Source of the DNA: Spirochaetota bacterium
GTDB taxonomy: Bacteria > Spirochaetota > Brachyspiria > Brachyspirales > JACRPF01
NCBI GenBank assembly: GCA_038043445.1
Contig: JBBTBY010000123.1
Location: forward strand, 1-38,551
Direction of reading: 5' to 3'
Length of the DNA: 38,551 nucleotides
Part shown: positions 3,562 to 38,065 of the stretch, in pieces
How positions within the stretch are numbered: position 1 is the first letter of the stretch
How the letters are laid out: every line of letters begins with the position of its first letter
Program-made: the position numbers and the translations under genes
Notes under the pieces: generated by a model
Databases searched by the model: none
Told to the model about the DNA's origin: nothing
Seen by the model: the letters and a program-made list of their open reading frames with translations, nothing else

Positions 3562-3568
3562 CTTGCCA

Positions 3569-18316: not shown

Positions 18317-18325
18317 GAGGAAAAA

Positions 18326-19933
18326 GTGAAGAACGCTGTTCTCATCATCCTTTCCCTGATCGCGATATCGACGGCGCTCATGCCGCAGGGGAAGAAGACG
18401 GCGAGGAAGACCGAAACGGCGGCACGGTATACGCCGAAGATCTATAAGGACTTTGCCATAAAGAACCGCATTGACGAGCTCGTGCTTGCGAAGCTTGAAG
18501 AGAAGCGGATAAAGCCGGCGGAAGCGGTGAACGATGAAACGTTCCTCCGCCGCGTGTACCTCGATATTACGGGGACGATACCGCAGAGCACGGATGTGAG
18601 GAAATTCCTCGACTCCACGGATCAGCATCGCCGGGAAAAGGTCGTTGATGCATTGCTCGCAAGCGAAGAACACATCGATTATCTTACGATGAAATGGCTC
18701 GATCTTCTGCGGGTACGCTCGGAATTCCCCATCAATCTCTGGCCCAATGCCGTACAGGCGTATCATCGCTGGATACGCGAAGCGGTGGTGAGCAATATGG
18801 CATATGACCGTTTCGCGCGCGAACTCATAACCGCGAGCGGCGTGAATTTCCGCGACCCGCCGGTGAATTTCTACCGTGCCATCCCGCGTAAGGAACCGCT
18901 CGTCATCGCACAGGCGGTGGCGCTCACGTTCCTTGGTGCGCGAACGGACAAGTGGCCGAAGGATGAAGCCCTCGGTTTCGCGGCGTTCTTTTCCAAGCTC
19001 GCCTATAAGTCGACCATGGAATGGAAGGAAGAGATCATATATTACGATCCTGACAAAAAACCGCTCATGGGAACGAACGGTGTCCCCGTACAGCCGCTGC
19101 TCCCCGACGGAACGAAGATTGCCTATGACATGGCGCTCGATCCGCGCATGCAGTTCGCGGATTGGCTCATCACCCCGGAAAACCCCTGGTTTGCCAAGGC
19201 CATCGTCAACCGCGTATGGTATTGGTATCTGGGGCGCGGCATCATACACGAGCCCGATGATATCAGGGATGACAATCCGCCGGCGAATGCAGAACTCCTT
19301 GCCTGGCTGGAGAAGGATTTTATCGCGCATAAGTACGATATGAAATATCTCATACGGCAGATCCTGAACTCGGGAACGTATCAGCTTGCTTCGAAACCCG
19401 CGGAGAACACGCCGACCAATGACATCTATTTTTCCCGCTATTACATCCGCCGGATCGATGCGGAGGTGATCATCGATGCGCTCTGCAGGATAACCGGTAC
19501 GACGGAATCGTATTCGAGCCCGGTGCCGGAGCCGTTCACCTACATCCCTGAGGATCAGACATCGGTACGGCTTAATGACGGCAGTATTACGAGCTCCTTC
19601 CTCGAAATGTTCGGCCGCCCGTCGCGCGATTCCGGCGCGGAGATGGAGCGCAATAACAGGCCGTCCGCCGCGCAGGAGCTGCATCTGTTGAACTCAAGCC
19701 ATGTACAGGATAAGCTTCGCCGCAGCACAACGCTTCGCCGTGTGCTCACCCAGGCGCGAACGCCGGAGAAGCAGGTCGAAGAGCTCTATCTTTCCATACT
19801 TTCCCGTTTCCCGACGGCGGAGGAAAAGGAGATAGCGCTCGAACATATGAAAGCAAATGCACGGAATAATGACGGCATCGGCGATATCGCATGGGCGTTG
19901 GTGAACGCAAGTGAGTTCATTCTCAAGCATTAG
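18326..19933 (+). CDS. DUF1549/DUF1553 protein lacking the CxxCH segment
   Basis: GTG start with AGGAGG just upstream; 535 residues. The N-terminus is a signal peptide (VKNAVLIILSLIAISTALM). DUF1549 covers about 45-225 (FLRRVYLDITGTIPQSTDVR, then REKVVDALLASEEHIDYLTM). DUF1553 covers about 270-530 (RMQFADWLITPENPWFAKAI, NRVWYWYLGRGIIHEPDD and the later QELHLLNSSHV). In typical family members the stretch after FLG carries CAxCHNHPF. Here residues 196-222 read AQAVALTFLGARTDKWPKD and then EALGFAAFF, with the CxxCH segment cleanly absent. Planctomycete homologues often also carry a cytochrome c domain (PSCyt1), absent here too. These proteins pair with DUF1501 proteins; their role is unknown, with a link to polysaccharide or sulfated sugar use often assumed. 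Confidence 0.85.
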   Translation: MKNAVLIILSLIAISTALMPQGKKTARKTETAARYTPKIYKDFAIKNRIDELVLAKLEEKRIKPAEAVNDETFLRRVYLDITGTIPQSTDVRKFLDSTDQHRREKVVDALLASEEHIDYLTMKWLDLLRVRSEFPINLWPNAVQAYHRWIREAVVSNMAYDRFARELITASGVNFRDPPVNFYRAIPRKEPLVIAQAVALTFLGARTDKWPKDEALGFAAFFSKLAYKSTMEWKEEIIYYDPDKKPLMGTNGVPVQPLLPDGTKIAYDMALDPRMQFADWLITPENPWFAKAIVNRVWYWYLGRGIIHEPDDIRDDNPPANAELLAWLEKDFIAHKYDMKYLIRQILNSGTYQLASKPAENTPTNDIYFSRYYIRRIDAEVIIDALCRITGTTESYSSPVPEPFTYIPEDQTSVRLNDGSITSSFLEMFGRPSRDSGAEMERNNRPSAAQELHLLNSSHVQDKLRRSTTLRRVLTQARTPEKQVEELYLSILSRFPTAEEKEIALEHMKANARNNDGIGDIAWALVNASEFILKH

Positions 19934-19956: not shown

Positions 19957-21300
19957 ATGAAGACACTGCAGAAGTACAAAGAGTACGGTAATGTCACCCG
20001 CAGACAGATGCTTCGTATGATGGGGGCGGGAGCATTGGGTGCTGTCGGCGCATCGCTTACCGGAGGAAAGCTTTTCGGTCAGCAGCCGAAGGCGAAGGCG
20101 AAATCGGTCATACAGATATGGATGTGGGGAGGACCGGCGCATGTCGATACGTTCGATCCGAAACCGGACGCCGGATACGATATATGCGGGCCTTTCAACA
20201 AGGCTATTCCGACGAATGTTCCGGGGATACAGTTCGGTGAATTCATACCCAAACTCGCACAGCGTGCCGATAAGCTGGCGGTCATTCGGAGCCTCACGCA
20301 TAAGAACAACGGACATGAAACCGCGTCGTACATGGTGCAGACCGGGCGTATGCCGGGCGGTTCGCTGGTATTCCCCTGTACGGGTGCGGTGACCGCGCTG
20401 AAGAAGGGTTACGATGCCGGCTACAAAGGGCTCATACCGCCGTATATTGTATTGACGCGGCTGCAGGGGCGTTTTTCCGAGGCCGGCTTCCTCGGGCAGC
20501 GGTATAAGCCGTTCGCCACCGGCGGAAATCCGAATGATGCGCGCTTTACCGTTGAGGGTGTCGTGTCGCGCGATCTGACAACGGAGCGGCAGCAGAGCCG
20601 CCGGGAACTTCTCGGCAAGCTCGATACGTTCGGAAAGAATCTCGCAGGTCTTCCCGAGATAACGCATGTCAACAACTGCGAGAACGAGGCGTGGGAGCTT
20701 ATCCTCGGTTCGGCCGGGAAGGTATTCGATCTCAATCAGGAGTCCAAAGATCTTCGCGATAAGTACGGCATGAACACGTTCGGTCAATCCTGTCTTGCGG
20801 CGCGGCGGCTTGTCGAGATCGGCGTGCCGTATATCACCATCAATTATGAGGGATGGGACACGCATAAGCAGCATTTTCAGATAATGCGGACGAAGCTTCC
20901 GCAGATGGATAATGCCATGTCGGCGCTCCTCGATGACCTTTCGCAGCGCGGTCTTCTTGACAGCACGATAGTGTGGTGGGGCGGCGAATTCGGCCGCACA
21001 CCGCGTGTGCAGTGGGAAGCCCCCTGGAACGGCGGGCGCAATCACTTCGGCAATGTGTTCTCATCCGTGGTCGCCGGCGGCGGGTTCAAGGGCGGGCAGG
21101 TGATCGGTTCCACGGACGCGACCGGCGAGGAAGTGCGCGATCGCCCGGTATATCCGTGGGATTTCATCGGTACGATGTATTCGCAGCTCGGCATTGACCC
21201 GGAGGGGACGATGATGCACCCCTCAGGATACGATGTCCGCATCACGCCGGGTCCCGAGGAAAAACTCCCTTCCGGCGGCAGGTTGACGGAGATCGTCTGA
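19957..21300 (+). CDS. Tat-exported DUF1501 protein
   Basis: The product has 447 residues. It has a twin-arginine signal: TRRQMLRMMGAGALGAVGAS at residues 14-33. The mature part starts the DUF1501 domain with SVIQIWMWGGPAHVDTFDPK and continues with AVIRSLTHKNNGHETASYMV, GVPYITINYEGWDTHKQHF, DSTIVWWGGEFGRTPRVQW and GGRNHFGNVFSSVVAGGGF. The Asp, Thr and His residues in these motifs match the alkaline-phosphatase/sulfatase-like fold predicted for DUF1501. Enzyme activity has not been established for the family as far as I know. The gene lies 23 bases after the DUF1549 gene. Tat export implies that it folds with its cofactor in the cytoplasm. Confidence 0.9.
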   Translation: MKTLQKYKEYGNVTRRQMLRMMGAGALGAVGASLTGGKLFGQQPKAKAKSVIQIWMWGGPAHVDTFDPKPDAGYDICGPFNKAIPTNVPGIQFGEFIPKLAQRADKLAVIRSLTHKNNGHETASYMVQTGRMPGGSLVFPCTGAVTALKKGYDAGYKGLIPPYIVLTRLQGRFSEAGFLGQRYKPFATGGNPNDARFTVEGVVSRDLTTERQQSRRELLGKLDTFGKNLAGLPEITHVNNCENEAWELILGSAGKVFDLNQESKDLRDKYGMNTFGQSCLAARRLVEIGVPYITINYEGWDTHKQHFQIMRTKLPQMDNAMSALLDDLSQRGLLDSTIVWWGGEFGRTPRVQWEAPWNGGRNHFGNVFSSVVAGGGFKGGQVIGSTDATGEEVRDRPVYPWDFIGTMYSQLGIDPEGTMMHPSGYDVRITPGPEEKLPSGGRLTEIV

Positions 21301-23802: not shown

Positions 23803-26103
23803 CTACCGGGCACTATCGACCGCGGAAAGCCCGCTGATGAATACCGGGCATGTCGTAAGCGGTATCGTGATATCGTCTTTTCCTGCAATGGCCGATGATC
23901 TTCCATAGATATCGGTGACCGATACATTCCCTTTGACTTTTTTGAACGTAAGTGTTCCTGTGTCGCGAAGGCGCCATGCAGTGACGAGCGGTTTTCCGTT
24001 CACATCCCAGAGAAGCGCCCATGCCCCGTCCGCGTCGGTGATGCGCCCGCGATACACGGCATGCCGCATCTGATGGACAAGGTTGGCATACGCGACGGCC
24101 GCGGGCTTCGGCGCCATGGTGCCGTACCGGAGCAGACCGAAGTTGTGCTGCACCTCGTTGGTGTCGAACCCGTCACAGTAGAGATCGTACCAGAAGAATT
24201 TTTTCACGCCGAACGAGCGATGAACGAGGAATGCGCGCACCAGGTCCTCCGCCTGCGCCTTCTCGGTTTTCGGCGCGTCGCCGATAGTCACTCCGTCGAT
24301 GAAGGGCTTGCGCGATGTATAGCTCGCATAGCCCAGTTCGGTTATCCATATCTCGCGCGGTATCGAATGGGAATCGAGCATGGCGAGGAAATCCGGGTAT
24401 ACTTTCACGAGACCCTGCTCCTCGGGCGTGCCGCCGTGAAGCGAATACGGATGCGGGGCGACGATATCAATGAAGGGCGCCGCCCCCCAGTTCGATGCGA
24501 ATTTTCCTGTCCAGTCGGGGACGTCGAGCTCAGGCCATATCATTTTCGCGGAAGGGTCGACATCGCGAAGCGTCGTTGTCATCGCTTTCACAAGATCGGT
24601 GAACGCTTTTCCCCAGCTATCCGCCTGCCACACTTTCTCCGCGGGGAAACGTGTTTTCCAGCCGCCGAAATTATTCGGCTCGTTCTGTGATTCATAGATA
24701 GTGATCTTGCCTTTATGCAGTTCCATCGTCTTTCGTATTTTTGCGATATCAGCGTCCCAGCGATACGTGCCGTCGATAAGCGTGCCTTTTTCTGCATTCA
24801 CATAGGAGAAGAGCGGGAGCCAGCAGAGCGAATTCCTTTCCGCAAGTGCGAGCGTCGGCGAGAGCTCATTACTATCGGCACAGCGTGCGTAATTGATCCC
24901 GTCGCGGAACCAGCTGATGCCGAGTTTTGCCTGCAGGGCGGGGAGTTCGTCCCTGCCCCAGTTGCCGAAATGTGTGGCAACACCGAACGGTGAATCAAGA
25001 TCGGGTGTTCTCGGTCTGACATCCGGTATGACGCTGAAGGAGAGAAAATCCTCTTTGGAATTCAGCCCTGCGGCATTCACAAAAACGGCCGAGAGCGCGT
25101 AGTATCCCCTGCCGATCGCTGTCTTCATCTCTACGGCGGCGCTGTAATCGTTCTCGGGCGAAAGCGTGAGCGGTTCAAGCGTCCGCGTTGCAGTGCCGTC
25201 GACATCCGTAATGCGGAATCGGGCGGTCCTGATAACTGACCCGTCCGGCGCGGCAGGCACCGCGACGGTGAACGATATCATCTCTTCCGCAGTATAGATG
25301 CCGCCGGGGATGTTCGGCGTTATGAACGCCTTGAAATTCCCGGTGAACCAGCTGTTGTACTCGCCGGCAAGCATGCGCCCGATCTCCTCGGCAGAGAGCG
25401 CAGGTGCGCTTTCCCAATCCCCTTTTTTCGTGCAGTGCGATCTGATCTCATCGACGGTCAGTGCTCGGGAGAATACCGCCAATTCGTCGATGCTGCCGTT
25501 CAGGCGTCCGCCGCCGTCATTGGCAACGCCTATCTTGAGGAGCCCCGGCTGCGCCATGGCAAGCGGTACCGAGCAGGTGTTCACGAGCTTTCGTTCGCCG
25601 TTGACATAGAGCGAGAAATTATCCTTCCGACCGGCCCCCTCGAACACAAGGGCGATGTGATGCCATGTTCCCGCTTCGTTCACGGAGGGCGATGGCTCGC
25701 GAAGCATGTAGTCGCGCCTGTCCTTGCGCTGCTCTATCGCGGTCACGCTCCCGTCGGCGGAGAGGAAGAGGCGATGGAACCATCCCTGCGAAAGGATGTC
25801 CTGTATCTTTCCCGTTGCGCGGAGACGGACCCACACTTCTATCGTCTGTGCGGGGCGTTCCGCGGTGAGCGACGCGCGCGCCGGACATTCGACATGCGTC
25901 GTCTTCCCGTCGAACTCGAGTGCGCCGCCGGAAACGCCTTCGGTCCACCGTATCGCCCCGCGAATGACGGCATGATTGCCGTTCCCCGATACATCGAGGA
26001 TAATAGGGCCGCGCCCTTCGTTGAAGCGATAGCGTGCGATAAGTCCGTCATCGGCAAGAAGGAGCGATGATGCGCACATTACCAAGGAAAGAATATTTTT
26101 CAT
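23803..26103 (-). CDS. secreted LamG + clan GH-A glycoside hydrolase
   Basis: The product has 766 residues: a signal peptide (MKNILSLVMCASSLLLADDG), a LamG domain (about 20-225, GLIARYRFNEGRGPIILDVS and NGSIDELAVFSRALTVDEI), a linker/Ig-like part (about 245-360), a GH-A barrel (about 370-680) and a short beta domain. Acid/base E475 is in IYESQNEPNNFGGW, nucleophile E589 in IWITELGYASY, both as expected for GH39-like enzymes. KKFFWYDLYCDGFDTNEVQH is shared in style with the paralogues at 29135, 32710 and 34858 (the FFWYDL motif). It is the last gene of the minus-strand operon; GGAGCTC precedes the start. Secreted enzyme on an extracellular polysaccharide; substrate unknown. Confidence 0.8.
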   Translation of the reverse strand: MKNILSLVMCASSLLLADDGLIARYRFNEGRGPIILDVSGNGNHAVIRGAIRWTEGVSGGALEFDGKTTHVECPARASLTAERPAQTIEVWVRLRATGKIQDILSQGWFHRLFLSADGSVTAIEQRKDRRDYMLREPSPSVNEAGTWHHIALVFEGAGRKDNFSLYVNGERKLVNTCSVPLAMAQPGLLKIGVANDGGGRLNGSIDELAVFSRALTVDEIRSHCTKKGDWESAPALSAEEIGRMLAGEYNSWFTGNFKAFITPNIPGGIYTAEEMISFTVAVPAAPDGSVIRTARFRITDVDGTATRTLEPLTLSPENDYSAAVEMKTAIGRGYYALSAVFVNAAGLNSKEDFLSFSVIPDVRPRTPDLDSPFGVATHFGNWGRDELPALQAKLGISWFRDGINYARCADSNELSPTLALAERNSLCWLPLFSYVNAEKGTLIDGTYRWDADIAKIRKTMELHKGKITIYESQNEPNNFGGWKTRFPAEKVWQADSWGKAFTDLVKAMTTTLRDVDPSAKMIWPELDVPDWTGKFASNWGAAPFIDIVAPHPYSLHGGTPEEQGLVKVYPDFLAMLDSHSIPREIWITELGYASYTSRKPFIDGVTIGDAPKTEKAQAEDLVRAFLVHRSFGVKKFFWYDLYCDGFDTNEVQHNFGLLRYGTMAPKPAAVAYANLVHQMRHAVYRGRITDADGAWALLWDVNGKPLVTAWRLRDTGTLTFKKVKGNVSVTDIYGRSSAIAGKDDITIPLTTCPVFISGLSAVDSAR

Positions 26104-26127: not shown

Positions 26128-29124
26128 TTATCGTGCAAGACGATACCGAAGATAGAGATCGGGGTCTTTCACCGTGCCGATGCCCTGCCCGAATTCAAGG
26201 ATGGCCTTGCGGTCGGCCGTATCTGCATCGTTGATGAGCGCGCTTAAGGCTATCGTATCGCCCGGCTTGGCGCCGAAAAGGTCGAGCGGTATACGGAATG
26301 TGTACCGCAGTTTCCCGTCGAGCTTGACTGCGTACTCGATGCGTTTGTCGGCTTCCGGCACGGGACTTTTCCAAACAGCAAAGAGCGGTGAACCGCCGCG
26401 AAGTGCCGCCCCACATTCAAGGTTCCGTGATCCGTCGCGCCGGGCAATACCTATCTGCACGCTGTCCGCACGCCACATATCGTTCGCTGATGCCGGCGGA
26501 TCGATATGCGCGTCGTCGCGCACGGCGAGCTGTATGAAGAGCGACGTGTCGTCATTGGCGATAAAGAGCGCGCCGGAAAGGTCATCGGCGCCCTTCCACT
26601 GTTCCTTGCCCGCGGAAAGATCGACGAGCGAGGCTTTATCATCCCTGATAAGAACGGGGGCAAGGCCCGCGGCATCGGTCTTCATACCGCTGACAGAGCC
26701 GCCCATCCAGCGGGCGAGATCGACGATGCCTGCAATAGTGTCGAGCGCGGCGGCATCCGGCAGGCGATAGCGCTTCCTCCAGTTCGGCATGCCTGGCACA
26801 TCCTCGGCATACTCATCGACCGAGCCGATGCTCCCGCCGAACAGTTCCTTGTACAGTGCATCGCATTTCGATGAGTAGGCGTAGATGAGCCTGTCCGTGC
26901 GGTAGGGCTTTTCGGTTATCCATTCGGGTGTGCGCATCGATGCGGCAACGGCGCCGTTCCTGCGTATCTCAACGCGTACCGGCCCTGCCGCAAGCGGCAC
27001 CTGCACGGAGATAAGACCTGCGTCCGCGGTAATACGTTTGACGCCGTTCACCCATACCTCGCCGGGGGCTTTCAGTATCGCGGCAGCATCGATTATGTTC
27101 ATCGAACTTACGACGGGTTCATCGCGTCCGATATGCCACGGCACCACCTGCGCCTTCACGGGGAATACGATCGGCTCCGCTTCTATCGGATATTTATGGA
27201 AGAACGCCATCACCGTGTCCTCGGCTGTTTTTTTCGTTCCGCGCCAGATGTTCTCAAAATAGTCGGTGAGCACGGCGAACGCGAAATTGTGATTGCCTTC
27301 CGGCGCAAGATGATGCCCCTCGGGGTAATCGTTCCAGGTGACATAGCTTACGAACGACGCATCGCAGTCGACCGCGCGCTGCCAGAGCGTACGGTACTGC
27401 AGGGCGCCGGGGAGCACGAGATAGAGCATTTTCACATCGTTTGCCTTGAGCGACGGTATGTCCGCTGCGATGGGGAGTTTTCCGACCTTCTTATACGTCT
27501 TCACGTAGTCGGTCATCACCGCCTGTCCGTAAAAGCGTCCGCGCCGTCTGCATTCATCGCTCACGCGCTTCCATTCCTTTGTCGAGCGCGCATCCGCGGG
27601 ATAATCGGCAAAGCCGGTCACCGCGGGGAAATGATCGAGTATCGCATCGATGTAGCGGTCGTACTGCGCATCGAAATCGATCTCGCGCGAGCGGGCATTC
27701 TGATACATCGTATCCTTATCCCAAACATGATAGACGAATGCAGCAGGCACGCCTATCATGCGCCGCATCGCCTCATATCCTTCGGCGAGTGCTTTGACAT
27801 GCAGATCGATATCCTTTTTCCGGAAGAGATCGCCGTAATTGAGCACGCCGTCGCTGTAGCCCTCGGTGGCCCAGGTGAAGAATACGATGCGTCCGTCGGG
27901 GGCGCGCAGCCAATGCGGCGAATCCTTCCAGTCGCGCATAAGCTCGTTGATGCACTGCGCTGCGGCACGTATCTTTTCCTTTGCATCGGTCTTCTGGTTC
28001 GGATGCGAGATGCAGAGCGTGAGCTTGAAATCGATAGAGCGCTCCTTGAGCACTCTGAAAAAGCGGCGGATGACATCATTGTTGTAGGATGTTCCCGGCG
28101 TATACGTATCGGGGTCGGGGGATTGATAGTAGAAATGGAAGCCGTCGATACCGAGGCGTTTCGCGGTACGCACTTCGAATTCGATAGCATCGTCGGCAGC
28201 CTTGTTCGAAAGGAATGCCGCGAACGCTGAACGGTACGTGTATGCCCCGCCGATATTGCTCGCCGGTCCGTCGGGATATCCATACACAGCGTTCATATAG
28301 TACCCTTTATCGCTGCCGAATGTGCTCATCTGCGTCATGTAATGCGCGATGACGGGCTTGCCTTTAAAGAGCGGTGTGCGTAGCTCAGCGCGGTCTTTCT
28401 CGAGCGTTACCGCAGGCACGATGTCGCCCGGTATCTCGGAGGTTTTTGCTGCTTCCGTCGACCGCATGAGAGATGCAATATCATCCGCCGATAACGCTGC
28501 GGTATAGACGCGCACTTCATCGATGACGCCCTTGAACGCGAACGAATTGTTCCCGGCTGCGCCGATGAGGAATGTCCTCGCGTAGTCGCGGAACGTGCCG
28601 CTGAACGAAGCGGTCCCCGCCGCGGCGCCGTTCACGTACAGTGTTATTTTCCGCGCATTATACGCAGCAGCGACATGATGCCATTCGCCAATGCGTACCG
28701 GTGAGGAACCGACAGAGCATGATCCGCCGGTCATGCCCCAGACAGAGAAGCCGAACGTGGTGATGCCTTTATCCGAGTGCGCGAAGAGCCCCGCGTGGAA
28801 GCCGCTTTTACCGGCGATAAGCCGCTCCCGTCCCGCCTGCTCGTCGGGCTTTACCCATGCCGTTATCGTGAACGATGAATCCTCGGCACCGCTCATAAGC
28901 ACCGGCATGGCAAACTCTGCGCCCGCGGGTGCTCCGCTGAAACGCATGGCCTTTCCGATGCGACCCTCGGCCCAATCTGCCGCCCCGCGCATACGCGCGT
29001 GATTAGAATATCCCGAGCTGTCGTACACGCCTTTACCAGCGCCGTCATTGAACGACCACCAGGCGACAAGGCCGTCCTCCGCACAGAGCGATACAGCGGC
29101 GGTAATGATGAGCAGGATGCGCAT
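26128..29124 (-). CDS. secreted LamG + GH71/GH99-like + CBM9-like protein
   Basis: The product has 998 residues. The signal peptide is short (MRILLIITAAVSLCAEDG). LamG covers about 18-225 (GLVAWWSFNDGAGKGVYDSS and FKGVIDEVRVYTAALSADD). The catalytic region (about 255-680) begins GKPVIAHYMTQMSTFGSD and continues AKRLGIDGFHFYYQSP, the pattern of GH71 alpha-1,3-glucanases; GH99-like (WbsX-related) enzymes are the other candidate. A beta-rich segment (about 690-740) and a CBM9-like domain (about 800-998, GALFIANDDTSLFIQLAVRD and MWRADSVQIGIARRDG) follow. The catalytic residues cannot be assigned by eye. The ATG is preceded by GGAGGG and lies 10 bases after the upstream gene's stop. The domain set fits a surface or secreted alpha-glucanase or mannanase. 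Confidence 0.75.
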   Translation of the reverse strand: MRILLIITAAVSLCAEDGLVAWWSFNDGAGKGVYDSSGYSNHARMRGAADWAEGRIGKAMRFSGAPAGAEFAMPVLMSGAEDSSFTITAWVKPDEQAGRERLIAGKSGFHAGLFAHSDKGITTFGFSVWGMTGGSCSVGSSPVRIGEWHHVAAAYNARKITLYVNGAAAGTASFSGTFRDYARTFLIGAAGNNSFAFKGVIDEVRVYTAALSADDIASLMRSTEAAKTSEIPGDIVPAVTLEKDRAELRTPLFKGKPVIAHYMTQMSTFGSDKGYYMNAVYGYPDGPASNIGGAYTYRSAFAAFLSNKAADDAIEFEVRTAKRLGIDGFHFYYQSPDPDTYTPGTSYNNDVIRRFFRVLKERSIDFKLTLCISHPNQKTDAKEKIRAAAQCINELMRDWKDSPHWLRAPDGRIVFFTWATEGYSDGVLNYGDLFRKKDIDLHVKALAEGYEAMRRMIGVPAAFVYHVWDKDTMYQNARSREIDFDAQYDRYIDAILDHFPAVTGFADYPADARSTKEWKRVSDECRRRGRFYGQAVMTDYVKTYKKVGKLPIAADIPSLKANDVKMLYLVLPGALQYRTLWQRAVDCDASFVSYVTWNDYPEGHHLAPEGNHNFAFAVLTDYFENIWRGTKKTAEDTVMAFFHKYPIEAEPIVFPVKAQVVPWHIGRDEPVVSSMNIIDAAAILKAPGEVWVNGVKRITADAGLISVQVPLAAGPVRVEIRRNGAVAASMRTPEWITEKPYRTDRLIYAYSSKCDALYKELFGGSIGSVDEYAEDVPGMPNWRKRYRLPDAAALDTIAGIVDLARWMGGSVSGMKTDAAGLAPVLIRDDKASLVDLSAGKEQWKGADDLSGALFIANDDTSLFIQLAVRDDAHIDPPASANDMWRADSVQIGIARRDGSRNLECGAALRGGSPLFAVWKSPVPEADKRIEYAVKLDGKLRYTFRIPLDLFGAKPGDTIALSALINDADTADRKAILEFGQGIGTVKDPDLYLRYRLAR

Positions 29125-29134
29125 AAGCCCTCCG

Positions 29135-32100
29135 TTATTTCAGCACGATGATCGGCCAAAGCCGGGGATCGCGTGCATTGCCGAGACCTTCGGCTATCCA
29201 GAGCCAGCCCTTGCGCCCCTTGCCGTCATTATCGTTCACGATGCAGTTGAACGCCATCGAAGCAGGAAGTCCCGCACGAACAAGCGCTATCTCATACACC
29301 GTTCTTTTTCCGGCATCGTCGCGCTTCACCTCTGCGGCTATTTCGCCGTCGGCTATCGGCACGACTTTGTCCCCCGGCGCACGCTTTATCATGAGCACTT
29401 TGCCGTCGGAAAGTCCCACATCGTAGAGCATGGAATCACTTTCACTATCCTTTGATACAGCGAACTGAACGCTGTCCGCATTCCAAAGCCTGTCCATAGG
29501 CTCGTTCTGGAAATGGATATCGTCCTTTACCGTTATCTGCAGATAAAGCTTCGCATCGTCGCAGGCAATGCGTACTGCGGCGCTCTGGTCGTCGGCATCG
29601 CGCCAGTGAAGTTCCTTGCGCGTCGGGTCGAACGCGAAGAGATTGAAGATGTCCTTCAGTTCCTTAAGCTCCGCGAATACCTGCGCCGATGGCCACTGCG
29701 GGCTCCCCGGGCGATAGTCCCCTTTTGCGGTGATCGGTACCGCATAGCGTATCGCTACCGCGGCAAATCCGATCATCTCGTTATCGACGGTCAATCGTGC
29801 AGAGAGCATATCCTTTGAGCTGCCGCGCGCGGGTGATGATACCGTGAAATCGATCTTTTTCTGCTCCGATGCGGCGAGTGTAATGTCGCGCTCTTTCGGA
29901 ACAATGGCGCCGGCGAACGTGCCGCCCGCGGCGACCGAGAGCGAACCGGTTATCGGCTTGCCGAACGGGTTCTGTACCGAGACGGGTACCGCGGTACTGC
30001 TGCCGGGTATGACCGTGATCGAGCGCGGCATGGCGATGACCATGGGGCCGCCCTTCATCACGACTGGTCCGCTCTTATTCCAACGCAGATAGGAGGGCGT
30101 TTTCGTTATTGTCACGGCGGCTTTCCCCTCGCGCACGGATACCGGCCGCTCATTCCCCATGATATCGATTTGCGACGCGTCTGCCGCCTCGCCGATGTTG
30201 AGGTAGGTGAGCCGCGATGCGTTCTCATTGAGCCAGAGCACGGCGAGAGCTGCCGTATCGTTCTCATACAGATGCGCCATGATGCCCTCGCCGACATCGG
30301 CGATAGTGCGGAAACGGAACCCCCGCATAGTGCGCAGGAGCGCGTGATACGCGAGATAACCGGGGCGCGGTTCGTGATAGGCGCGGTCGTTATAACGGAT
30401 GATGCCGAAATTGTGTTCGCCCTCTTTCGGGTCCGGTCCGTCGCAGAAGAGATCGTACCAGAAATAGGCATGATGGCCCTCTGCCTGCACCGTGCTTATT
30501 TTCTTTACGAGCATTTCCGCCTGATCGCGTTCTGTCTGTCCGCCGACGACGGTGTATCCGCTCTCATTATCCCATATCTCAATACCGCTTTTGTCGATCT
30601 TTTTCAGATGTTCGCGTATCTTCGGGAATTTCTCAATGTAGAGCTCGTTCACATTGCCGTGTGCATGGTATGCATACACGTCGATGTTCTTCCCGATGGC
30701 CGCATAAAAACGGTCCATGCGGTCATAGCTCGTTTCGGTAAGCCCGCGCGACGGGCGGTTGGCGAACGCCCATCCTGAATTCATGACTTTCAGCGCCGGA
30801 TCGATATCCTTGATGCGTGTGTATGTCTCTTTATAAAGCTCGATATATCTGCTGAAATCGCCGGGCCAGAATCCCCAGTCCGCTTCGTTCCATACTTCCC
30901 AGTATTTCAGCCTGTCCTTGTAGCGTGTGACCGTGTTCGTCGCATAGACATAGTAGAGCGATAGATCGGAGGGCGGCGTGCGTCCGTCCTTTGAGAACCA
31001 GCCGGCGAAGTAATCGAGTATCGGGAGCGGCGTGACCTTCACGCCGAGGTGATTGGCAACAAGCGTATCGAGATTATTGTAATTCCACTGACCCTGCTTC
31101 GGTTCCACACCGCCCCAGGTGAAATCCCAGCGGAGCATGTCCACGCCGAGATAGTCGAGCCATTGATAGTACACATGTCCCGTATCGAGCTGCGATCCCC
31201 CGGGGTGGGCGCACATCGCATAGATGAAATCCCCCGGCTTTGCGCGTGCGGTGTTCTTTCCCGACACTATCCCGAACGAAACCGTTCCCTCGCTTATGGT
31301 GTGTCCGGTCGTCGTTGCCGCGAGAAGCTCTATCGCGAAATAGCCTTTGTTCGCCGTTCCCATTGTGAGCGGGAGCGTTTTCGCTTCTCGTGCTTCGAAA
31401 TGCACGGTCTTCTTTTTTGCGATCACCGGTGTCCCGAAATAATCGGCGATGCGTGCCGAGAGCACGACATCGGCGCTCTTACGCGTCTTGTTCGAATACA
31501 TGAGCGTGAATGCGCATTCCGCGCCCTGCTCAAAAATATTGATCGGCCGATCGTTCACGACGCTGAACATGCCGGTCTTCCTGAGCGATGCGAGATAGTC
31601 GCTCTGGTTCGCATCGGCATAGATGATGTTGTCGATATACACGACGGCGTCGCCCGCACCTTCAATGATAAGGCGATGTATCGTGATGGGAAAATCGAAT
31701 TTCCCGTCCTTGTTCCCTCCCCAGGTGGGGAATTCGAATTCATCCTTCGATTCAATGACACGAACGGTTTTCGTGAGCCATTGATCGCCGCCGAGATTGA
31801 GCCGCGTCGACTGGAACGTCTCACCGGTGGCATCCTGCAGCCGGATCTTTACCCACATATCCTTCGATGTGCTCTTCGCGCAGAGCGATACGCTCCCGCC
31901 GCGTTCGGTTATTTTCACATCTTTCGTGAAGTCGATGATGGGATATTCCGCATAGCCGCGCCCGTCAATGGATATCGTGACACCGAGCGAACGCTTCCCG
32001 ATGGCGGTCGCATCGGTGATCTCTGCATTTTCCGACTTGATCTTCACTTTCGCGAGCGGTTCAATGCGCCCCGACGCGTTCTCAAAATCCGCTGCGATAA

Positions 32101-32683
32101 CTTCGCCGCCGGCTGGTGCTTCCTTCTCGGTGTAGGTATGCGTTATCCGGTCGAAATAGATCGTTCCCGATCCGCTGCCTTCGACGATGATAGTATGGAA
32201 TTTCACCGGCACATCGAGCTTTTTATCGTTATTGCCGCCCCATGATGATTCGATGTCCGCGCTGCCGTCGGCAAGACGTATCTTCTTCGTTTCCCACGTT
32301 CCTTTCTTAAGCGTAAGCCCGCGGGACTGGAATGTCTCGCCCTTCGCATCGATAAGGCGCAGTTTTATCCATATGCCTTCGGCGGACGCGAATCCTGCGA
32401 GCGTCAGTTCGCCGCCGATATCTTCGATGGCATTGCCGCCCGTAAAAGGCGCGAGCACATATTCCGCATAGGCAGCCTTTTCATGCGTGTAGCTTATCTT
32501 AAGCGATCTCTCACCCGAGCGCTTCATATCGGCCGATGTCTCCGCGGACGATGCGGTAACGGGGTCCTGTTTGTACGCGGGGTTCGCTTTATACCCCGCC
32601 GGAAAATCGATGAGTGTGTCGGTGACGGTCTCTGCGAATGACAGAGAGGCGATCGCGCCGAGCAGGGCAAGGAATTTTTTCAT
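29135..32683 (-). CDS. secreted GH-A hydrolase with tandem WGG domains and CBM9
   Basis: The product has 1182 residues. After the signal peptide (MKKFLALLGAIASLSFA) come two tandem copies of one beta domain (about 20-185 and 195-357). Each has GETFQS, then a WGG motif with a KLD or KFD-P sequence (SSWGGNNDKKLDVPVKFHTI; PTWGGNKDGKFDFPITIHRL), and a final strand IYFDRI or VYIDNI. An Ig-like part (about 380-475) leads to a GH-A barrel (about 480-830) with E600 in YWEVWNEADWGFW and E707 in IWDNESGYTVV. A further beta domain and a CBM9-like domain (about 985-1182, with LWNADSVQFAVSKDSESD) finish it. The same WGG domain is found once in each of the two upstream genes. Secreted, large, GH39-like; substrate unknown. 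Confidence 0.8.
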   Translation of the reverse strand: MKKFLALLGAIASLSFAETVTDTLIDFPAGYKANPAYKQDPVTASSAETSADMKRSGERSLKISYTHEKAAYAEYVLAPFTGGNAIEDIGGELTLAGFASAEGIWIKLRLIDAKGETFQSRGLTLKKGTWETKKIRLADGSADIESSWGGNNDKKLDVPVKFHTIIVEGSGSGTIYFDRITHTYTEKEAPAGGEVIAADFENASGRIEPLAKVKIKSENAEITDATAIGKRSLGVTISIDGRGYAEYPIIDFTKDVKITERGGSVSLCAKSTSKDMWVKIRLQDATGETFQSTRLNLGGDQWLTKTVRVIESKDEFEFPTWGGNKDGKFDFPITIHRLIIEGAGDAVVYIDNIIYADANQSDYLASLRKTGMFSVVNDRPINIFEQGAECAFTLMYSNKTRKSADVVLSARIADYFGTPVIAKKKTVHFEAREAKTLPLTMGTANKGYFAIELLAATTTGHTISEGTVSFGIVSGKNTARAKPGDFIYAMCAHPGGSQLDTGHVYYQWLDYLGVDMLRWDFTWGGVEPKQGQWNYNNLDTLVANHLGVKVTPLPILDYFAGWFSKDGRTPPSDLSLYYVYATNTVTRYKDRLKYWEVWNEADWGFWPGDFSRYIELYKETYTRIKDIDPALKVMNSGWAFANRPSRGLTETSYDRMDRFYAAIGKNIDVYAYHAHGNVNELYIEKFPKIREHLKKIDKSGIEIWDNESGYTVVGGQTERDQAEMLVKKISTVQAEGHHAYFWYDLFCDGPDPKEGEHNFGIIRYNDRAYHEPRPGYLAYHALLRTMRGFRFRTIADVGEGIMAHLYENDTAALAVLWLNENASRLTYLNIGEAADASQIDIMGNERPVSVREGKAAVTITKTPSYLRWNKSGPVVMKGGPMVIAMPRSITVIPGSSTAVPVSVQNPFGKPITGSLSVAAGGTFAGAIVPKERDITLAASEQKKIDFTVSSPARGSSKDMLSARLTVDNEMIGFAAVAIRYAVPITAKGDYRPGSPQWPSAQVFAELKELKDIFNLFAFDPTRKELHWRDADDQSAAVRIACDDAKLYLQITVKDDIHFQNEPMDRLWNADSVQFAVSKDSESDSMLYDVGLSDGKVLMIKRAPGDKVVPIADGEIAAEVKRDDAGKRTVYEIALVRAGLPASMAFNCIVNDNDGKGRKGWLWIAEGLGNARDPRLWPIIVLK

Positions 32684-32709
32684 GGTCTATTCTCCCATCC
32701 GACTAAGTT

Positions 32710-34821
32710 TCACTTCTTTACGAAATATACCGGTGATGCCGTGAGCGTGACCGTACCCGTCCCGAGCGCATTCCCCATGATATCGACGGCGTTCATGCCA
32801 GCGGGCACCGTTACCGTCGCCGATGTTTTCGGTGACCACGCAGCGATCACGGCACCGGATGCGCGCTTGAACTCGAAGGCAAGTGCATCCGCATGGAAAT
32901 TGCGCTCCTTCACGAATTGAGCCCCCGAAAGGAGCGAGCTCATGACCACATACGCGCTGTAGGCGGGTTTCGGCATGCAGCCGAATTTTGCGTTGCGAAG
33001 GATGCCGAAGTTGTTCTCATTATACGCGCGATCCGCACCGTCATCCATGAGGTCGTACCAGAAGAGCTTCTCGACGACACCGGTGGAGAGCATGAGCACA
33101 TGCGCCCGCACGAGCATTCTCGCCTGCTCCGTTTCCGTCGTTTCGCGCGAGCCTTTATGCGTCGGCCAGCCGACCTCGGTTATCCATATATTCTGCTTTC
33201 CATTGTATTTCTCGATGAGCGACTTGATGTTCTTCATCTCTTCCACGAGCGTCATGCCGGCGACCTTGTCCTCCGGTGCGGAGGGATAACGGTACGGATG
33301 AACCGATACGGCATTGCAGTAGGAGAGCGCGCCGGCAGCGAACATCGCTTCGATAGGTTTCAGGTCATGCGTGCTGTGCTCACCGCCGAGTCCGACGATA
33401 TACGCATTCGCATCGACCGCGCGCACCGCTTCAAACGCTGTCTTGAGCACCTTCACATAGTTTTCCGGCGTATTTCCCGGGCGGTTCTTTCCGTCCTTGC
33501 CCTTCATGCCGCAGCCGCCCGTCCATTCATTCCATACCTCGTAGCATTTTATACGGCCTCTGTATTTCGCAGCAAGTGCCTTGCAGTACGCTCCGTACGC
33601 CGCGAGTGTCTCATCCGATGCGGGAAAATTACCTTCATCATAGAATTTATTCCCGTAGTTGAGGATGATGAGCGGTTCAATGCCGAGAGCGAGCGCGGCA
33701 TCGATGTAGGCATCGTATTTCGGATCGAAGACTATCCCGCCTTTCTTCTGCTCAACGCGGCTCCAGCACATCTCATCGCGGAGATATTTGATGCCCGCGG
33801 ACGCCATCATGTTCATCGTTTCCGGCGGGAAGTAATCGGGACGAAAACCGCTCTGATAATGCGTGCATATGCCGAAGAACGATGATGCTATGGACTTGAG
33901 GTCGATGGCAGGGTTCACGCTCATGCGTACCGTATAGCTCGCGACCGGAACGCCGGCGAGCGTGCTCTCTATCGTTGCGGTGATGAAGCCCTGCACCTTT
34001 GGGCCTATCGTGATGACATTCTCTTTGGAAAGTTCCATGCTCCCCTTCGAGAACACGCGTGTGCCGTCACTGATGCTGTAGTTCGCGCCGACAATGCCGT
34101 CCGCTGCGGGTGAAAGCTTCAGTTTCACTGAACCTGCGCTGAACGAATTGCCGTACGCGGGGGAATCGATCTCAGCTTTGAAGAGCGGTCGCGGTTCCTC
34201 GCGTTTTTTCATGAGGTATATATCGTCGATGGTGATAGAGCCTGCCCCTTTGTATCCCTTGCTCGGCCGGTCATAGACGATGGCATAGGGCTTCACCGGA
34301 TAATCGAGCTTTCTGTTCCCATCCCCGCCCCACGCACCGCCGTGGTCCTTAAGTTTGCATGCGTAGAATTTCCATTCGCCTTTCACGATGCTGTTCTCGT
34401 ATTCGAGCTGATGCGTTTCGCCGGAGGCGTCGTTCACGCGCAGGCGCAGTGACCCAGTCTCGCCGTCGAATTTCGCCCACATGCCGATGTATAACCCCGG
34501 TTTATCGACGACGAATTCTTTCCCGACATTCACATATTCGAGCTTCTCTCTGCCGATGAAGGTGAAATCTATCTTTACCGCTTTTCCCGCGCGTCCCGTC
34601 CCCTCGCTTACCTTCATGACGGCGTATTGATCGCTCTCGCCCGTCGTCCAGCCCTCGGTCGATGCGGCGTAATTGACGGGCGATACCCGCTCGAACGCCT
34701 TGTCGCTCTGAGAATCATCGGGTATCAGCTCTATCGGACGCCACTCAGCGAATAGACCAGCAGCGAGCGTTACGCACACAGCCGTCGTTATCAAGACTGA
34801 TCTGAAGATCATGTGTCCCAT
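32710..34821 (-). CDS. secreted GH-A hydrolase with one WGG domain
   Basis: The product has 703 residues: signal peptide (about 1-25), a WGG beta domain (about 45-205, GETHQLEYENSIVKGEWKFY and GAWGGDGNRKLDYPVKPYAI), an Ig-like domain (about 215-305), a GH-A barrel (about 310-640) and a short C-terminal beta part. E432 in YEVWNEWTGGCGMKGKDG is the acid/base, E549 in IWITEVGWPTHKGS the nucleophile. The barrel start FFGICTHYQSGFRPDYFPPE, then FWYDLMDDGADRAYNENNFG, are nearly repeated in the next gene (34858), so the two are recent paralogues. GGGAG lies 7 bases ahead of ATG 34821; ATG three codons later is possible. The WNEWxGGCGMKGK insertion after the acid/base is unusual for GH39. Secreted; substrate unknown. 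Confidence 0.8.
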   Translation of the reverse strand: MGHMIFRSVLITTAVCVTLAAGLFAEWRPIELIPDDSQSDKAFERVSPVNYAASTEGWTTGESDQYAVMKVSEGTGRAGKAVKIDFTFIGREKLEYVNVGKEFVVDKPGLYIGMWAKFDGETGSLRLRVNDASGETHQLEYENSIVKGEWKFYACKLKDHGGAWGGDGNRKLDYPVKPYAIVYDRPSKGYKGAGSITIDDIYLMKKREEPRPLFKAEIDSPAYGNSFSAGSVKLKLSPAADGIVGANYSISDGTRVFSKGSMELSKENVITIGPKVQGFITATIESTLAGVPVASYTVRMSVNPAIDLKSIASSFFGICTHYQSGFRPDYFPPETMNMMASAGIKYLRDEMCWSRVEQKKGGIVFDPKYDAYIDAALALGIEPLIILNYGNKFYDEGNFPASDETLAAYGAYCKALAAKYRGRIKCYEVWNEWTGGCGMKGKDGKNRPGNTPENYVKVLKTAFEAVRAVDANAYIVGLGGEHSTHDLKPIEAMFAAGALSYCNAVSVHPYRYPSAPEDKVAGMTLVEEMKNIKSLIEKYNGKQNIWITEVGWPTHKGSRETTETEQARMLVRAHVLMLSTGVVEKLFWYDLMDDGADRAYNENNFGILRNAKFGCMPKPAYSAYVVMSSLLSGAQFVKERNFHADALAFEFKRASGAVIAAWSPKTSATVTVPAGMNAVDIMGNALGTGTVTLTASPVYFVKK

Positions 34822-34857
34822 TGTAAATCTCCCAAGGATATATTTTATTACAGCGTT

Positions 34858-36927
34858 TTAAATGCCAAGGTCTTTTCCATAGATATACACTATGTCTTCG
34901 GTGAGACGTACGGACCTGTCCGATGAGATCGGGAGCCCCATGATATTCTTCACCGAGGAAACAGTTCCTGAGACCGTCGCGTCCTCGCGTCCGCTTGACA
35001 TCCACGCGATCAGGCATTCACTGCCGTCGGGCAGGGTATAAAGCACGGCATGACGGTTCTCATTGCGGAGGAGCTTGACGGCGGTCGCTCCTGCGGTCGC
35101 GCGATTGAACACCGAGAGCGCGACCATGGCTGGCTTGGGGGCGTAATTAAATACCTGATGACGTACAATGCCGAAATTGTCTTCGTTGTACATGCGGTTC
35201 GTTCCATCATCTTTATAATCGTACCAGTACACCCGCTCAACGAACCCCGTCGATTGAAGGAGCGCATACGTTCGTACGATATAGCGTGCTTGCGAGCGCT
35301 CGAGAACACCGCGGGAATCCGCCTGCGTAGGCCAGCCGATCTCGGTCACCCACGCTTTTTTCGGCGCTCCTTTCGCGGCAGCGCGATCGGCGATGGCGCC
35401 AACCTCTTCAACAAGTTTGCTCATTTCAGGCGGTGCAGGATATCGATAGGGGTGTATCGAGAATGCATCCATGGATGAACCGCCGGCGGTGCTTATCGCG
35501 CGCTCGATATTTTCTGCGCATTTCAAACCGTATTCCCCGCCGATGCCGACCACGGTGACATCCGGGTGCTCTTTTTTTACCGCACTATACACGGCTTTCT
35601 GCAGCCGGCCGTAGGCTTCCGGGGAATGATCGTTGACCTTGCCTTTCATGCCGCAGCCGCCGACCCATTCGTTCCACACCTCATAGGAAGTGACATTTCC
35701 CTTGGTCATGCCTGTCAATGCAGCGGCATAGCGGGCGAATGCCGCGATATCATCGTCCGTATTCGGGAAATCGCCGCCTGCATAGAGCTTGTTGCCGTAA
35801 TCGTATATGACGAACGGTTCCATGTTCAATTCTTTTGCGCGCGCGAGATATTTTCCGCACGCCTCGGGCATTTCATAGACGCCCGCGGTCCTTTCAGTCC
35901 AGCTCCAGGGGACCTCGTCGCGGAAATGGCGGATGCCGTACTGGGCAAGGAGATCCATCGATTCGAGCGGGTGGCTGTTGAGAAAATGAGTGCAAATCCC
36001 GATAAAGGCGTTCCTCGCGACGCCTGTGGCGGCGAGCACGGCGCACGGGAAAAGTTTTGTTTCAATGACGTTCCCTCCGCTGATAAGGTCGATGCGGCAG
36101 CGGTAGTATCCCGGAGCGCTCGGGGTGAATGTGACGGGGCATTCTGATGCGGCGCCCTCTCCTTTCGCGACGATAGTATCGAAGTAATCGGCGACGCTCC
36201 ATCGTATCGCGCTCCCCTCGCCGCGTGCGAACAATTCCACCTGCGCTTTCGGGGCATATACATTGCCGAACGGCGGAGCCCCCTCGATGACAAGTGACGG
36301 TCTTTTCTGTTCTGTTTTTTTCAAGCGTGTGACCGTGTCGAGCCAGAGCGAGTTCTTTCCTTTGTACCCGATCATCGGGCGGTCGAAGATGAGTTGGAGT
36401 TTTGCGGGCAGATCGAGCTTGCCGTTCTTGTCGCCGCCCCAGAAGGATGATTGCCCTGAAACGGAGAATGCGATGAAATGCCATCCGCTGTTCTGCTCTG
36501 CTATCGCCGCGAGCTGATGCGTTTCACCGTTCGCATCGACCAGCCGGACGAAGAGGGGGAATCGCGTTCCATCATCGAGTACCCAAAAACCGATGCCGCC
36601 GGGGGTGTCATCGTCGGTGACGGCAATGCCGGTATCGAGCTGGATGAATTCCAGTTTTTTCTCGGCGAGGAATTCATAATCGACACGAAGTGATGCGGCT
36701 CCATCGCGTTTGACAGCCTTGTCGACAACGACCGAAGCCTTTGCGCTCTGCGAACCATCTGCTGCGGCCCATGCCGTATCGAGGTTTTCGAATCCTTCGA
36801 TCTCCGAGATCGGCACGTATGATTGTTCCGGGCTGAGATCAGGCGCAGGACACTTGATCTCCTGCCGGCCGAAAACCAGGGATGTCATTCCAGCGACAAC
36901 GATGATTATGCGCGTCGTTCGTCTCAT
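34858..36927 (-). CDS. secreted GH-A hydrolase with one WGG domain, paralogue
   Basis: The product has 689 residues and is a paralogue of the gene at 32710. Signal peptide MRRTTRIIIVVAGMTSLVFG; WGG domain about 45-202 (NGETHQLAAIAEQNSGWHFI, SSFWGGDKNGKLDLPAKLQL and the IGYKGKNSLWLDTVTRL strand); Ig-like part about 215-300; barrel about 305-625 with E420 in YEVWNEWVGGCGMKGKVND and E529 in AWVTEIGWPTQADSRG. The frame stays open another 53 codons upstream into the regulator gene, but the ATG at 36927 follows AGGAGC and gives a proper signal peptide. First hydrolase after the regulator, 40 bases downstream of it, so under the most direct control. Secreted; substrate unknown. Confidence 0.8.
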   Translation of the reverse strand: MRRTTRIIIVVAGMTSLVFGRQEIKCPAPDLSPEQSYVPISEIEGFENLDTAWAAADGSQSAKASVVVDKAVKRDGAASLRVDYEFLAEKKLEFIQLDTGIAVTDDDTPGGIGFWVLDDGTRFPLFVRLVDANGETHQLAAIAEQNSGWHFIAFSVSGQSSFWGGDKNGKLDLPAKLQLIFDRPMIGYKGKNSLWLDTVTRLKKTEQKRPSLVIEGAPPFGNVYAPKAQVELFARGEGSAIRWSVADYFDTIVAKGEGAASECPVTFTPSAPGYYRCRIDLISGGNVIETKLFPCAVLAATGVARNAFIGICTHFLNSHPLESMDLLAQYGIRHFRDEVPWSWTERTAGVYEMPEACGKYLARAKELNMEPFVIYDYGNKLYAGGDFPNTDDDIAAFARYAAALTGMTKGNVTSYEVWNEWVGGCGMKGKVNDHSPEAYGRLQKAVYSAVKKEHPDVTVVGIGGEYGLKCAENIERAISTAGGSSMDAFSIHPYRYPAPPEMSKLVEEVGAIADRAAAKGAPKKAWVTEIGWPTQADSRGVLERSQARYIVRTYALLQSTGFVERVYWYDYKDDGTNRMYNEDNFGIVRHQVFNYAPKPAMVALSVFNRATAGATAVKLLRNENRHAVLYTLPDGSECLIAWMSSGREDATVSGTVSSVKNIMGLPISSDRSVRLTEDIVYIYGKDLGI

Positions 36928-36967: not shown

Positions 36968-38065
36968 TCACGGTACACTGACCGGTACTGCTGCCGTGCT
37001 CGAACGTTCGCAGAGCACCGATGCAATGCGTGTAATATGTTCACCGCCCGCGACGGCACGGAATGCTGTGCGAGCGAGATCATCATATCGCGCAGCCATG
37101 GCGGTTATGCCGGGGACCGTGTATGCATACTGGTCGCTGTCGCCTTCGCCGCCGTCGGCGATGATGCTTACATCCTCGGGGACGCGTATGCCGGCCTCCG
37201 CGTAAGCACGGAGCGCACCGGCGGCCCCGGACGCGGAATCGTATATGACGGCGGATGGCCGATGCGATGTGATAAGTTCCTTCGTTCTCACATACCCTGC
37301 AAGAAGCGCGCTGTCCCATGGCCGAATGCGGTGCGCACGGTCCATCAGATCCGGCGATATTCCGTGCTCGGAAAATATGCGGCGTATCGTGCGCTCGCGT
37401 ATGCGCGTTTCCTCCGCTTCCGGCTCATTGCCGATGTATGCGATGTCTGTGTGGCCGCTGTCGATGAGATATTGTAGCGCTCTCGACGCGCTCGCTTCGT
37501 AATCGGGGCAGACGATGCGTATATTAGTAAGCCCCTCCGCATTGACTTCATTGAAGAACACGAACGGTATGCCCGCGGCATTGAACTCAGCGAGCTGCGC
37601 TATCGAGATCTGCTGTGCGGGGAGCACGAACACCGCGGCGATGCCGCTGCTTTTAGCAATGATGTCGCTGATTATCTCATAGTCGGTATCTTTCTTGAGC
37701 TCAACGGGACGCAGCGTGAATTGCGATGCGGCCATATGCACATGCTCGGTGAGCCGGAAAATGAAATGCGAAAAATAGCGCGGGTATGCGAAGAGTATCT
37801 CGCGTCCGCCGGTGCCCTGTTCAAGTGCTATCTCGCCGTCGCGCCCCGCGATGAATATGCCTTTTCCCCGCCGCCGCTCGATAAGGCCTTCTTTCTCAAG
37901 TGCAAAGAGCATACGGTTAATGGTGGAAAGTGAGACATGGTAGCGCTTGATAAGCTCGCTTATTGAGGGGAGACGGTCATTGGACTGACCGCTCTTGATA
38001 CGCTCAAGGACGTATTCCTTGAGCTGTAAATACATTGGAATTTGGCTGTTTTTTGATATTTTCAT
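36968..38065 (-). CDS. GntR-type HTH + LacI-type ligand-binding regulator
   Basis: The product has 365 residues. Residues about 10-72 are a GntR winged helix (QIPMYLQLKEYVLERIKSGQ, then LPSISELIKRYHVSLSTINR, MLFALEKEGLIERRRGKG). Residues about 88-365 are a LacI/periplasmic-binding-protein type sensor, with SGIAAVFVLPAQQIS, GHTDIAYIGNEPEAEE, RPSAVIYDSASGAAGALRAY and VPEDVSIIADGGEGD. The layout is that of AraR, which binds L-arabinose in other bacteria; the sugar here is unknown. It heads the operon of secreted hydrolases and is divergent to a GH95 gene, so it most likely controls both. A palindrome sits between its promoter and its start. No Shine-Dalgarno sequence is visible before the ATG (the leader is about 20 bases), which predicts low translation. 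Confidence 0.88.
   Translation of the reverse strand: MKISKNSQIPMYLQLKEYVLERIKSGQSNDRLPSISELIKRYHVSLSTINRMLFALEKEGLIERRRGKGIFIAGRDGEIALEQGTGGREILFAYPRYFSHFIFRLTEHVHMAASQFTLRPVELKKDTDYEIISDIIAKSSGIAAVFVLPAQQISIAQLAEFNAAGIPFVFFNEVNAEGLTNIRIVCPDYEASASRALQYLIDSGHTDIAYIGNEPEAEETRIRERTIRRIFSEHGISPDLMDRAHRIRPWDSALLAGYVRTKELITSHRPSAVIYDSASGAAGALRAYAEAGIRVPEDVSIIADGGEGDSDQYAYTVPGITAMAARYDDLARTAFRAVAGGEHITRIASVLCERSSTAAVPVSVP

Follow-up and report, generated by a model that had tools for sequence, protein, structure and literature searches.

A beta-sandwich module of secreted GH39/PslG-like glycoside hydrolases related to CBM11 and to the spirochaete flagellar sheath protein FlaA

A WGG-signature module in three neighbouring enzymes

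A 38,551-nucleotide contig from a Spirochaetota bacterium (GenBank assembly GCA_038043445.1, contig JBBTBY010000123.1), hereafter the window, was analysed. Three adjacent minus-strand genes in it (29135-32683, 32710-34821 and 34858-36927) encode secreted glycoside hydrolases (GH) of clan GH-A with four copies of one domain of approximately 170 residues, here called the WGG module. This module is a new, widespread and unannotated branch of the CBM11/FlaA beta-sandwich superfamily (CBM, carbohydrate-binding module), not an unrelated new fold, and is homologous across its whole length to the flagellar sheath protein FlaA (Pfam PF04620). The sections below document its homology and fold, how widely it occurs, its occurrence as an optional part or in a separate gene, and its co-inheritance with the catalytic barrel. 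It is probably, though by no means certainly, a CBM11-like accessory module of secreted GH39/PslG-type enzymes, with FlaA as its free-standing offshoot.

The enzyme encoded at 29135-32683 comprises 1182 amino acids (aa) and contains copies A1 and A2 in tandem. Copy B lies in the 703-aa enzyme (32710-34821), and copy C in the enzyme encoded at 34858-36927. The modules and their motifs are as follows.

32120-32632, minus strand: WGG module copy A1, first of the tandem pair in the 1182-aa enzyme (hmmsearch and genome profile search, E 2e-44 to 2e-73; alignment)
32327-32341, minus strand: GETFQ motif of A1 (translation)
32207-32242, minus strand: WGGNNDKKLDVP motif of A1 (translation)
31607-32116, minus strand: WGG module copy A2, second of the tandem pair in the 1182-aa enzyme (E 1.8e-71; 37% identity to A1)
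31811-31825, minus strand: GETFQ motif of A2 (translation)
31688-31723, minus strand: WGGNKDGKFDFP motif of A2 (translation)
34204-34743, minus strand: WGG module copy B, 703-aa enzyme (E 6.7e-61; AlphaFold2 model pLDDT 90.3)
34408-34422, minus strand: GETHQ motif of B (translation)
34297-34332, minus strand: WGGDGNRKLDYP motif of B (translation)
36313-36870, minus strand: WGG module copy C, enzyme 34858-36927 (E 2.2e-65)
36514-36528, minus strand: GETHQ motif of C (translation)
36406-36441, minus strand: WGGDKNGKLDLP motif of C (translation)

BLASTP among the copies, run on a tiny database, gave E values of 4e-32 for A1-A2, 4e-25 for B-C and 1e-6 to 1e-10 for the cross-pairs. B and C share 36% identity, close to the value for A1 and A2, and the cross-pairs share 20-29% yet still match significantly. 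A profile search of the 5.1 Mb host genome recovered the four copies at about 1e-61 to 2e-73, together with weaker copies on other contigs. An earlier note on this DNA, made from the sequence alone, had placed four copies in these three enzymes, and translation, alignment, BLASTP and the genome profile search all find them there. Conservation peaks in two segments, D-A-x-G-E-T-[FH]-Q and W-G-G-[ND]-x-[DN]-x-K-[LF]-D-x-P, with 24-29 residues between them. The true hallmark of the family is R-x-x-D-[AS]-x-G-[EQ]-[TV]-[FH]-Q, WGG and a Pro 11 residues past the W. Among 51 distinct domains picked by profile alone, D is kept in 51, W in 50, GG in 47 and 41, P in 45, Q in 42 and E/Q in 49. The GET[FH]Q and WGG parts of the motif described in the note were located, but its conserved terminal Asp is found in just 28 of 53 relatives; the last-strand Asp is a general feature of such folds and is not diagnostic.

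Predicted fold and relationship to CBM families

Pfam scans of the three window proteins returned no model over the module at E ≤ 1. NCBIfam gave no model above cut-off over the module, with weak FlaA1/FlaA2 matches in relatives only (best 2e-6). These empty scans agree with the note, which did not recognise the domain as a named CBM. An AlphaFold2 model of module B, built from a 53-row alignment, is an 11-strand beta-sandwich (pLDDT 90.3, pTM 0.84). In a Foldseek search against 350,542 PDB chains the top match of this model is FlaA1 (9cyn, E 1.7e-6) from the flagellar sheath, followed by the K2-2 tailspike, a viral turret protein, CBM27, CBM16, CBM4, CBM11 and CBM61. With a CBM-like predicted sandwich and FlaA1 as its best PDB match, the family is a new branch within an established superfamily.

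By profile-profile comparison, CBM11 (Pfam PF03425) is the best match of the module. The hhalign comparison of the module family with CBM_11, represented by 16 Spirochaetota CBM_11 matches, gave 98.3% (E 1.6e-14), and the family is a profile-level homologue of CBM_11 with the same fold. CtCBM11 of Lic26A-Cel5E (PDB 1v0a, 2lro and 6r3m) is likewise a beta-sandwich, with TM 0.53-0.63 to the module (Foldseek E 2.5e-5, TM 0.59/0.63), and both are accessory to secreted glycoside hydrolases. Unlike CBM11, the module has the R..D.xG[EQ].[FH]Q and WGG...P signature, a GH39/PslG-like barrel partner and free-standing partner genes. CBM_4_9 (Pfam PF02018; profile-profile 89.6%) and CBM16, CBM27 and CBM61 have the general beta-sandwich and a terminal strand with Asp in common with the module, but are farther from it by profile and do not share its signature. 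The window proteins are below the curated Pfam CBM_11 cut-off (27 bits), with no match at E ≤ 1. The note had called the module possibly new, to be checked by placement in Pfam. It is new as a branch without a curated model and not as an unrelated fold, and although no curated model matches at E ≤ 1, profile-profile comparison puts the family beside CBM_11 and FlaA.

Homology to FlaA

FlaA (PDB 9cyn, 9pin and 10pl) is the top structural match of the module and matches its profile over the whole length, a link that the earlier note did not anticipate. The module profile matches FlaA chains in PDB (E 1e-6) and FlaA genes in unselected spirochaete genomes. The hhalign comparison of module and FlaA covers 159 columns, with 96.4%, E 1.4e-9 and a score of 66.8. 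Column-shuffled (n = 100, maximum 18.5) and reversed controls all scored below 19, and the observed score climbs to 75.1 once every Spirochaetota module is removed. A FlaA1-only alignment proved too narrow (0.5%, no profile match), and a wider FlaA set, chosen independently of the module, was used. In the opposite direction, a FlaA profile from which the module was excluded matches Armatimonadota and Kiritimatiellota GH-A enzymes, and the modules of an Armatimonadota GH-A enzyme (L025) and of a truncated GH-A-like reading frame in the host genome (L121, 8e-9) pass the Pfam FlaA cut-off. The window proteins are below this curated cut-off (25 bits), with no match at E ≤ 1. FlaA and the module have FE...W, ...DxxG..., GW and terminal YFD segments in common, and FlaA, like the stand-alone modules described below, is a free-standing secreted beta-sandwich. 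Unlike the module, FlaA lacks WGG and GETFQ and stands free in the periplasm around the flagellum, whereas the window copies are fused to GH-A barrels. FlaA is also near-universal in the Spirochaetota sample (119/120 genomes) and absent from the sampled controls (0/14), again unlike the module.

The resemblance to FlaA could in principle reflect convergence of common jelly-roll folds instead of common descent. Identity between the two is low (about 13%), the WGG signature is not shared, and many jelly-rolls resemble each other in fold searches, all of which would fit convergence. We nevertheless regard it as very improbable, given a profile-profile score far above the shuffled and reversed controls and above that of CBM_4_9 against FlaA (just 0.3%), the reciprocal hidden Markov model matches, and a GH-A-like open reading frame (ORF) of the host genome, L121, with a module that Pfam itself calls FlaA.

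In a tree with CBM_4_9 as outgroup, FlaA forms one clade (100/99) nested among the enzyme modules, and 0% of the bootstrap trees recover the enzyme modules as one clade without FlaA. The enzyme module nearest FlaA in the trees is that of L121. This placement suggests that FlaA may be a repurposed carbohydrate-enzyme module. With CBM_11 added, a clade of FlaA and 46 modules has 84/90. Here the nesting stays but is weaker, with one enzyme clade in 5% of the bootstrap trees, which weakens the support for the proposed derivation, so that a direction from enzyme module to FlaA appears likely, not proved.

How FlaA2 recognises the FlaB core was stated to be unclear in an EMBO J 2026 paper, which proposes glycan-mediated FlaA2-FlaB contacts and a possible peptidoglycan contact, and reports that FlaA2 has no known peptidoglycan motif (PMC13144727). 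In a term search of that paper, neither a carbohydrate-binding nor a jelly-roll fold came up, and a search of the published literature, with preprints outside its scope, found no statement of FlaA as CBM-like and no name for the module. The kinship described here ties the spirochaete flagellar sheath to carbohydrate-recognition domains. It provides a concrete hypothesis for FlaA2 recognition of the glycosylated FlaB core or the peptidoglycan layer, making this unsolved question directly testable. As a tentative proposal, with the balance somewhat against it, FlaA may be derived from an accessory module with which GH39-type polysaccharide enzymes bind glycan, and sugar recognition (FlaB-core O-glycans or peptidoglycan) may still underlie its role in the sheath, while many phyla in parallel use the module fused or as a separately secreted subunit.

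Two loci outside the window were also noted. L121 (1-1401; host genome contig C9) encodes a signal peptide, the Pfam-called FlaA module and the start of a GH-A-like barrel, where the ORF is broken off. At L089 (1399-2744, Spirochaetota genome G093), two adjacent small lipoprotein-like genes match Pfam CBM_11 (7e-18 for the first) and, weakly, FlaA (6e-5); the pair bridges the two families.

Association of the module with GH-A barrels

The catalytic and other domains of the three enzymes are as follows.

30284-31261, minus strand: GH-A (GH39/PslG-like) barrel of the 1182-aa enzyme (PDB 5jvk, E 7e-17; conserved NE and E columns)
30884-30895, minus strand: VWNE with the acid/base residue, 1182-aa enzyme (translation)
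30554-30568, minus strand: NESGY with the nucleophile, 1182-aa enzyme (translation)
29138-29605, minus strand: C-terminal CBM9-like domain, 1182-aa enzyme (Pfam PF06452, 6.7e-8)
33916-34182, minus strand: putative Ig-like beta linker joining module B to the barrel (strands 214-302, full-length AlphaFold2 model)
32902-33900, minus strand: GH39/PslG-like barrel of the 703-aa enzyme (PDB 5jvk, E 3e-26; profile E 4e-66; Foldseek TM 0.80 on target)
33526-33537, minus strand: VWNE, 703-aa enzyme (translation)
33166-33180, minus strand: TEVGW, 703-aa enzyme (translation)
35074-36012, minus strand: GH39-like barrel of enzyme 34858-36927 (42% identity to the 703-aa enzyme barrel)
35668-35679, minus strand: VWNE, enzyme 34858-36927 (translation)
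35332-35346, minus strand: TEIGW, enzyme 34858-36927 (translation)

All three enzymes have the clan GH-A arrangement of GH39-like/PslG-like proteins, with the acid/base Glu after Asn (WNE) and the nucleophile Glu in TE[VI]GW or NESGY. With both catalytic glutamates present, they look catalytically intact. The nearest solved catalytic domains are the GH39-type barrel of Bacteroides cellulosilyticus (5jvk) and PslG (4zn2, 5bx9), which ruled out GH50 as the catalytic family. Unlike the window enzymes, the 5jvk and PslG chains have no WGG module match.

The catalytic residues (NE and nucleophile columns) are kept in about 37 of the 43 module proteins examined; three of the exceptions are GH16-type enzymes. 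Barrel and module trees give the same clades. These include B and C with Planctomycetota, Lentisphaerota, Verrucomicrobiota and Armatimonadota enzymes, A1/A2 with the sister genome, a Lentisphaerota set and an Armatimonadota set. Module and barrel are co-inherited. The module is optional, as barrels with 31-39% identity to the 703-aa enzyme barrel occur without it. Its placement varies from N-terminal to C-terminal, tandem (two to five copies) or a separate secreted gene. Several module-less barrels are directly flanked by a secreted stand-alone module gene, often overlapping. Such split gene pairs were absent from the expectations of the earlier note. Among stand-alone single-module genes chosen blind to their neighbours, 7/10 (L252, L255, L256, L258, L259, L260, L269) abut a same-strand barrel gene, and L253, L254 and L261 have no adjoining barrel gene. 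L257, L262 and L268 also abut a barrel gene but were picked after the nearby barrel had been seen, so the count is 7/10, not 10/13; L256, L257 and L262 are near relatives. Chance adjacency, roughly estimated from barrel density, is about 3% per gene, far below the observed proportion.

Proposed function

Taken as a CBM11-like accessory module, the domain would keep the glycan substrate beside the GH39/PslG-like barrel. It could act fused to the barrel, as one copy or in tandem and on either side, or be secreted on its own from an adjoining gene. The enzymes belong to a GntR/LacI-regulated polysaccharide-degradation cluster, and spirochaete FlaA would be an offshoot of the same family, turned free-standing. 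Glycan binding is the most likely role judging from sequence and predicted structure. Its fold, its absence from some enzymes, its tandem occurrence and its changing position in the chain support the description in the note of a non-catalytic, CBM-looking module ahead of GH-A barrels. The family adds a large unannotated group of accessory modules to the carbohydrate-degradation toolkit and offers a route to finding its enzymes.

Several observations weigh against this interpretation. Classic type-B CBMs have a row of surface aromatics, which the most strongly conserved patch of the module (DAxGETFQ, WGG, Pro) does not form. The first set of relatives was fetched partly via two short motifs, and conservation counts in it are therefore partly circular. 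In the 51 profile-selected domains the acidic residues of the loop that follows WGG vary more, which also weakens the idea of a calcium loop formed by [DN]x[DN]xKxD. The congruent trees and the free-standing partner genes also fit a barrel-docking subunit, the main rival, in which the module would pack against the TIM barrel to complete or shape its substrate groove, and split pairs would reassemble by protein-protein contact.

GH2 enzymes are an example, with a sandwich (jelly-roll) domain that packs against the barrel to complete the substrate site. Docking would account for co-inheritance and for secreted module genes directly beside, and often overlapping, barrel genes, since a module meant for targeting would ordinarily have to be covalently attached. 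The full-length model of the 703-aa enzyme is fairly confident overall (pTM 0.81) and leans towards a defined domain arrangement, without deciding the mechanism; its order of beta-sandwich, Ig-like domain and barrel is that of GH2. GH2 matches, however, superpose poorly across the whole chain (TM 0.3, root-mean-square deviation 20 Å), and a GH2-like whole-enzyme arrangement was rejected. GH2 enzymes and the GH50 agarase Aga50D (4bq2) likewise place a CBM-like sandwich before a clan GH-A barrel, but neither has a sequence link to the window enzymes. Moreover, there are close barrels that lack the module in the chain, some without any neighbouring module found, and C-terminal and tandem positions are hard to reconcile with a single docking geometry. 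We therefore consider a docking subunit rather unlikely. A purely structural sandwich, a spacer or stability domain without ligand kept by descent, would suit the few conserved residues, including Gly and Pro expected at turns, and the structural role of its relative FlaA in the flagellar sheath. The independent secreted genes, the expansions to 22 copies per genome and the strongly conserved Glu, Gln, Asp and Trp instead suggest a function beyond spacing and make such a domain improbable.

Genomic context and distribution

The three module-enzyme genes adjoin a regulator gene (36968-38065, minus strand) for a protein with a GntR-type DNA-binding domain and a LacI-type sugar-sensing domain (Pfam GntR 3e-11, Peripla_BP_3 4e-24). 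The start of gene 34858 is at 36927, with the signal peptide MRRTTRIIIVV; a longer ORF reaching 37086 would overlap the regulator. The module is present in all three GH-A enzymes nearest the regulator, as the note had observed, yet the domain profile has no match in the other GH39-type window ORFs (3563-4942, 10612-11979 and 23803-26103). The cluster is thus a mixture of GH39-type enzymes with and without the module. Polysaccharide enzymes are abundant in the window, including GH39 types, GH16, a fucosidase, a GH123-type protein and LamG proteins. Adjoining the three enzymes, 26128-29124 encodes a 998-aa protein with a LamG domain, a GH71-like middle and a CBM9-like C-terminus, and the four genes possibly form an operon. 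A DUF1501 protein (19957-21300, E 1e-93) lies within the cluster and faces an 873-aa protein (17063-19684) with zero matches in a Pfam search.

The nearest relative is a groundwater Spirochaetes genome, one contig of which has a comparable row of such enzymes. Elsewhere in the host genome, paralogous GH-A proteins of about 1300 aa (L115, L116, L118 and L119; contigs C93, C90, C8 and C157) have a variant module at residues 270-490, with GQ[TLN]H and [WY]xG...FP.

A search of viral contigs with module B gave zero relatives. A genome-collection scan retrieved relatives from Spirochaetota, Lentisphaerota, Verrucomicrobiota, Kiritimatiellota, Planctomycetota, Armatimonadota, Actinomycetota, Pseudomonadota and candidate phyla. 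In a profile search of 145 genomes from the phylum of Victivallis, 28 have the module, with up to 22 copies per genome (the maximum in one Victivallis genome). Four Victivallis-group proteins (L263, L264, L265 and L266) consist mostly of WGG modules in tandem, and a catalytic domain was not found in these chains. Two Actinomycetota proteins of 1800 aa, from Rathayibacter and another Microbacteriaceae (L026 and L043), each have a single GH-A barrel surrounded by five copies of the module.

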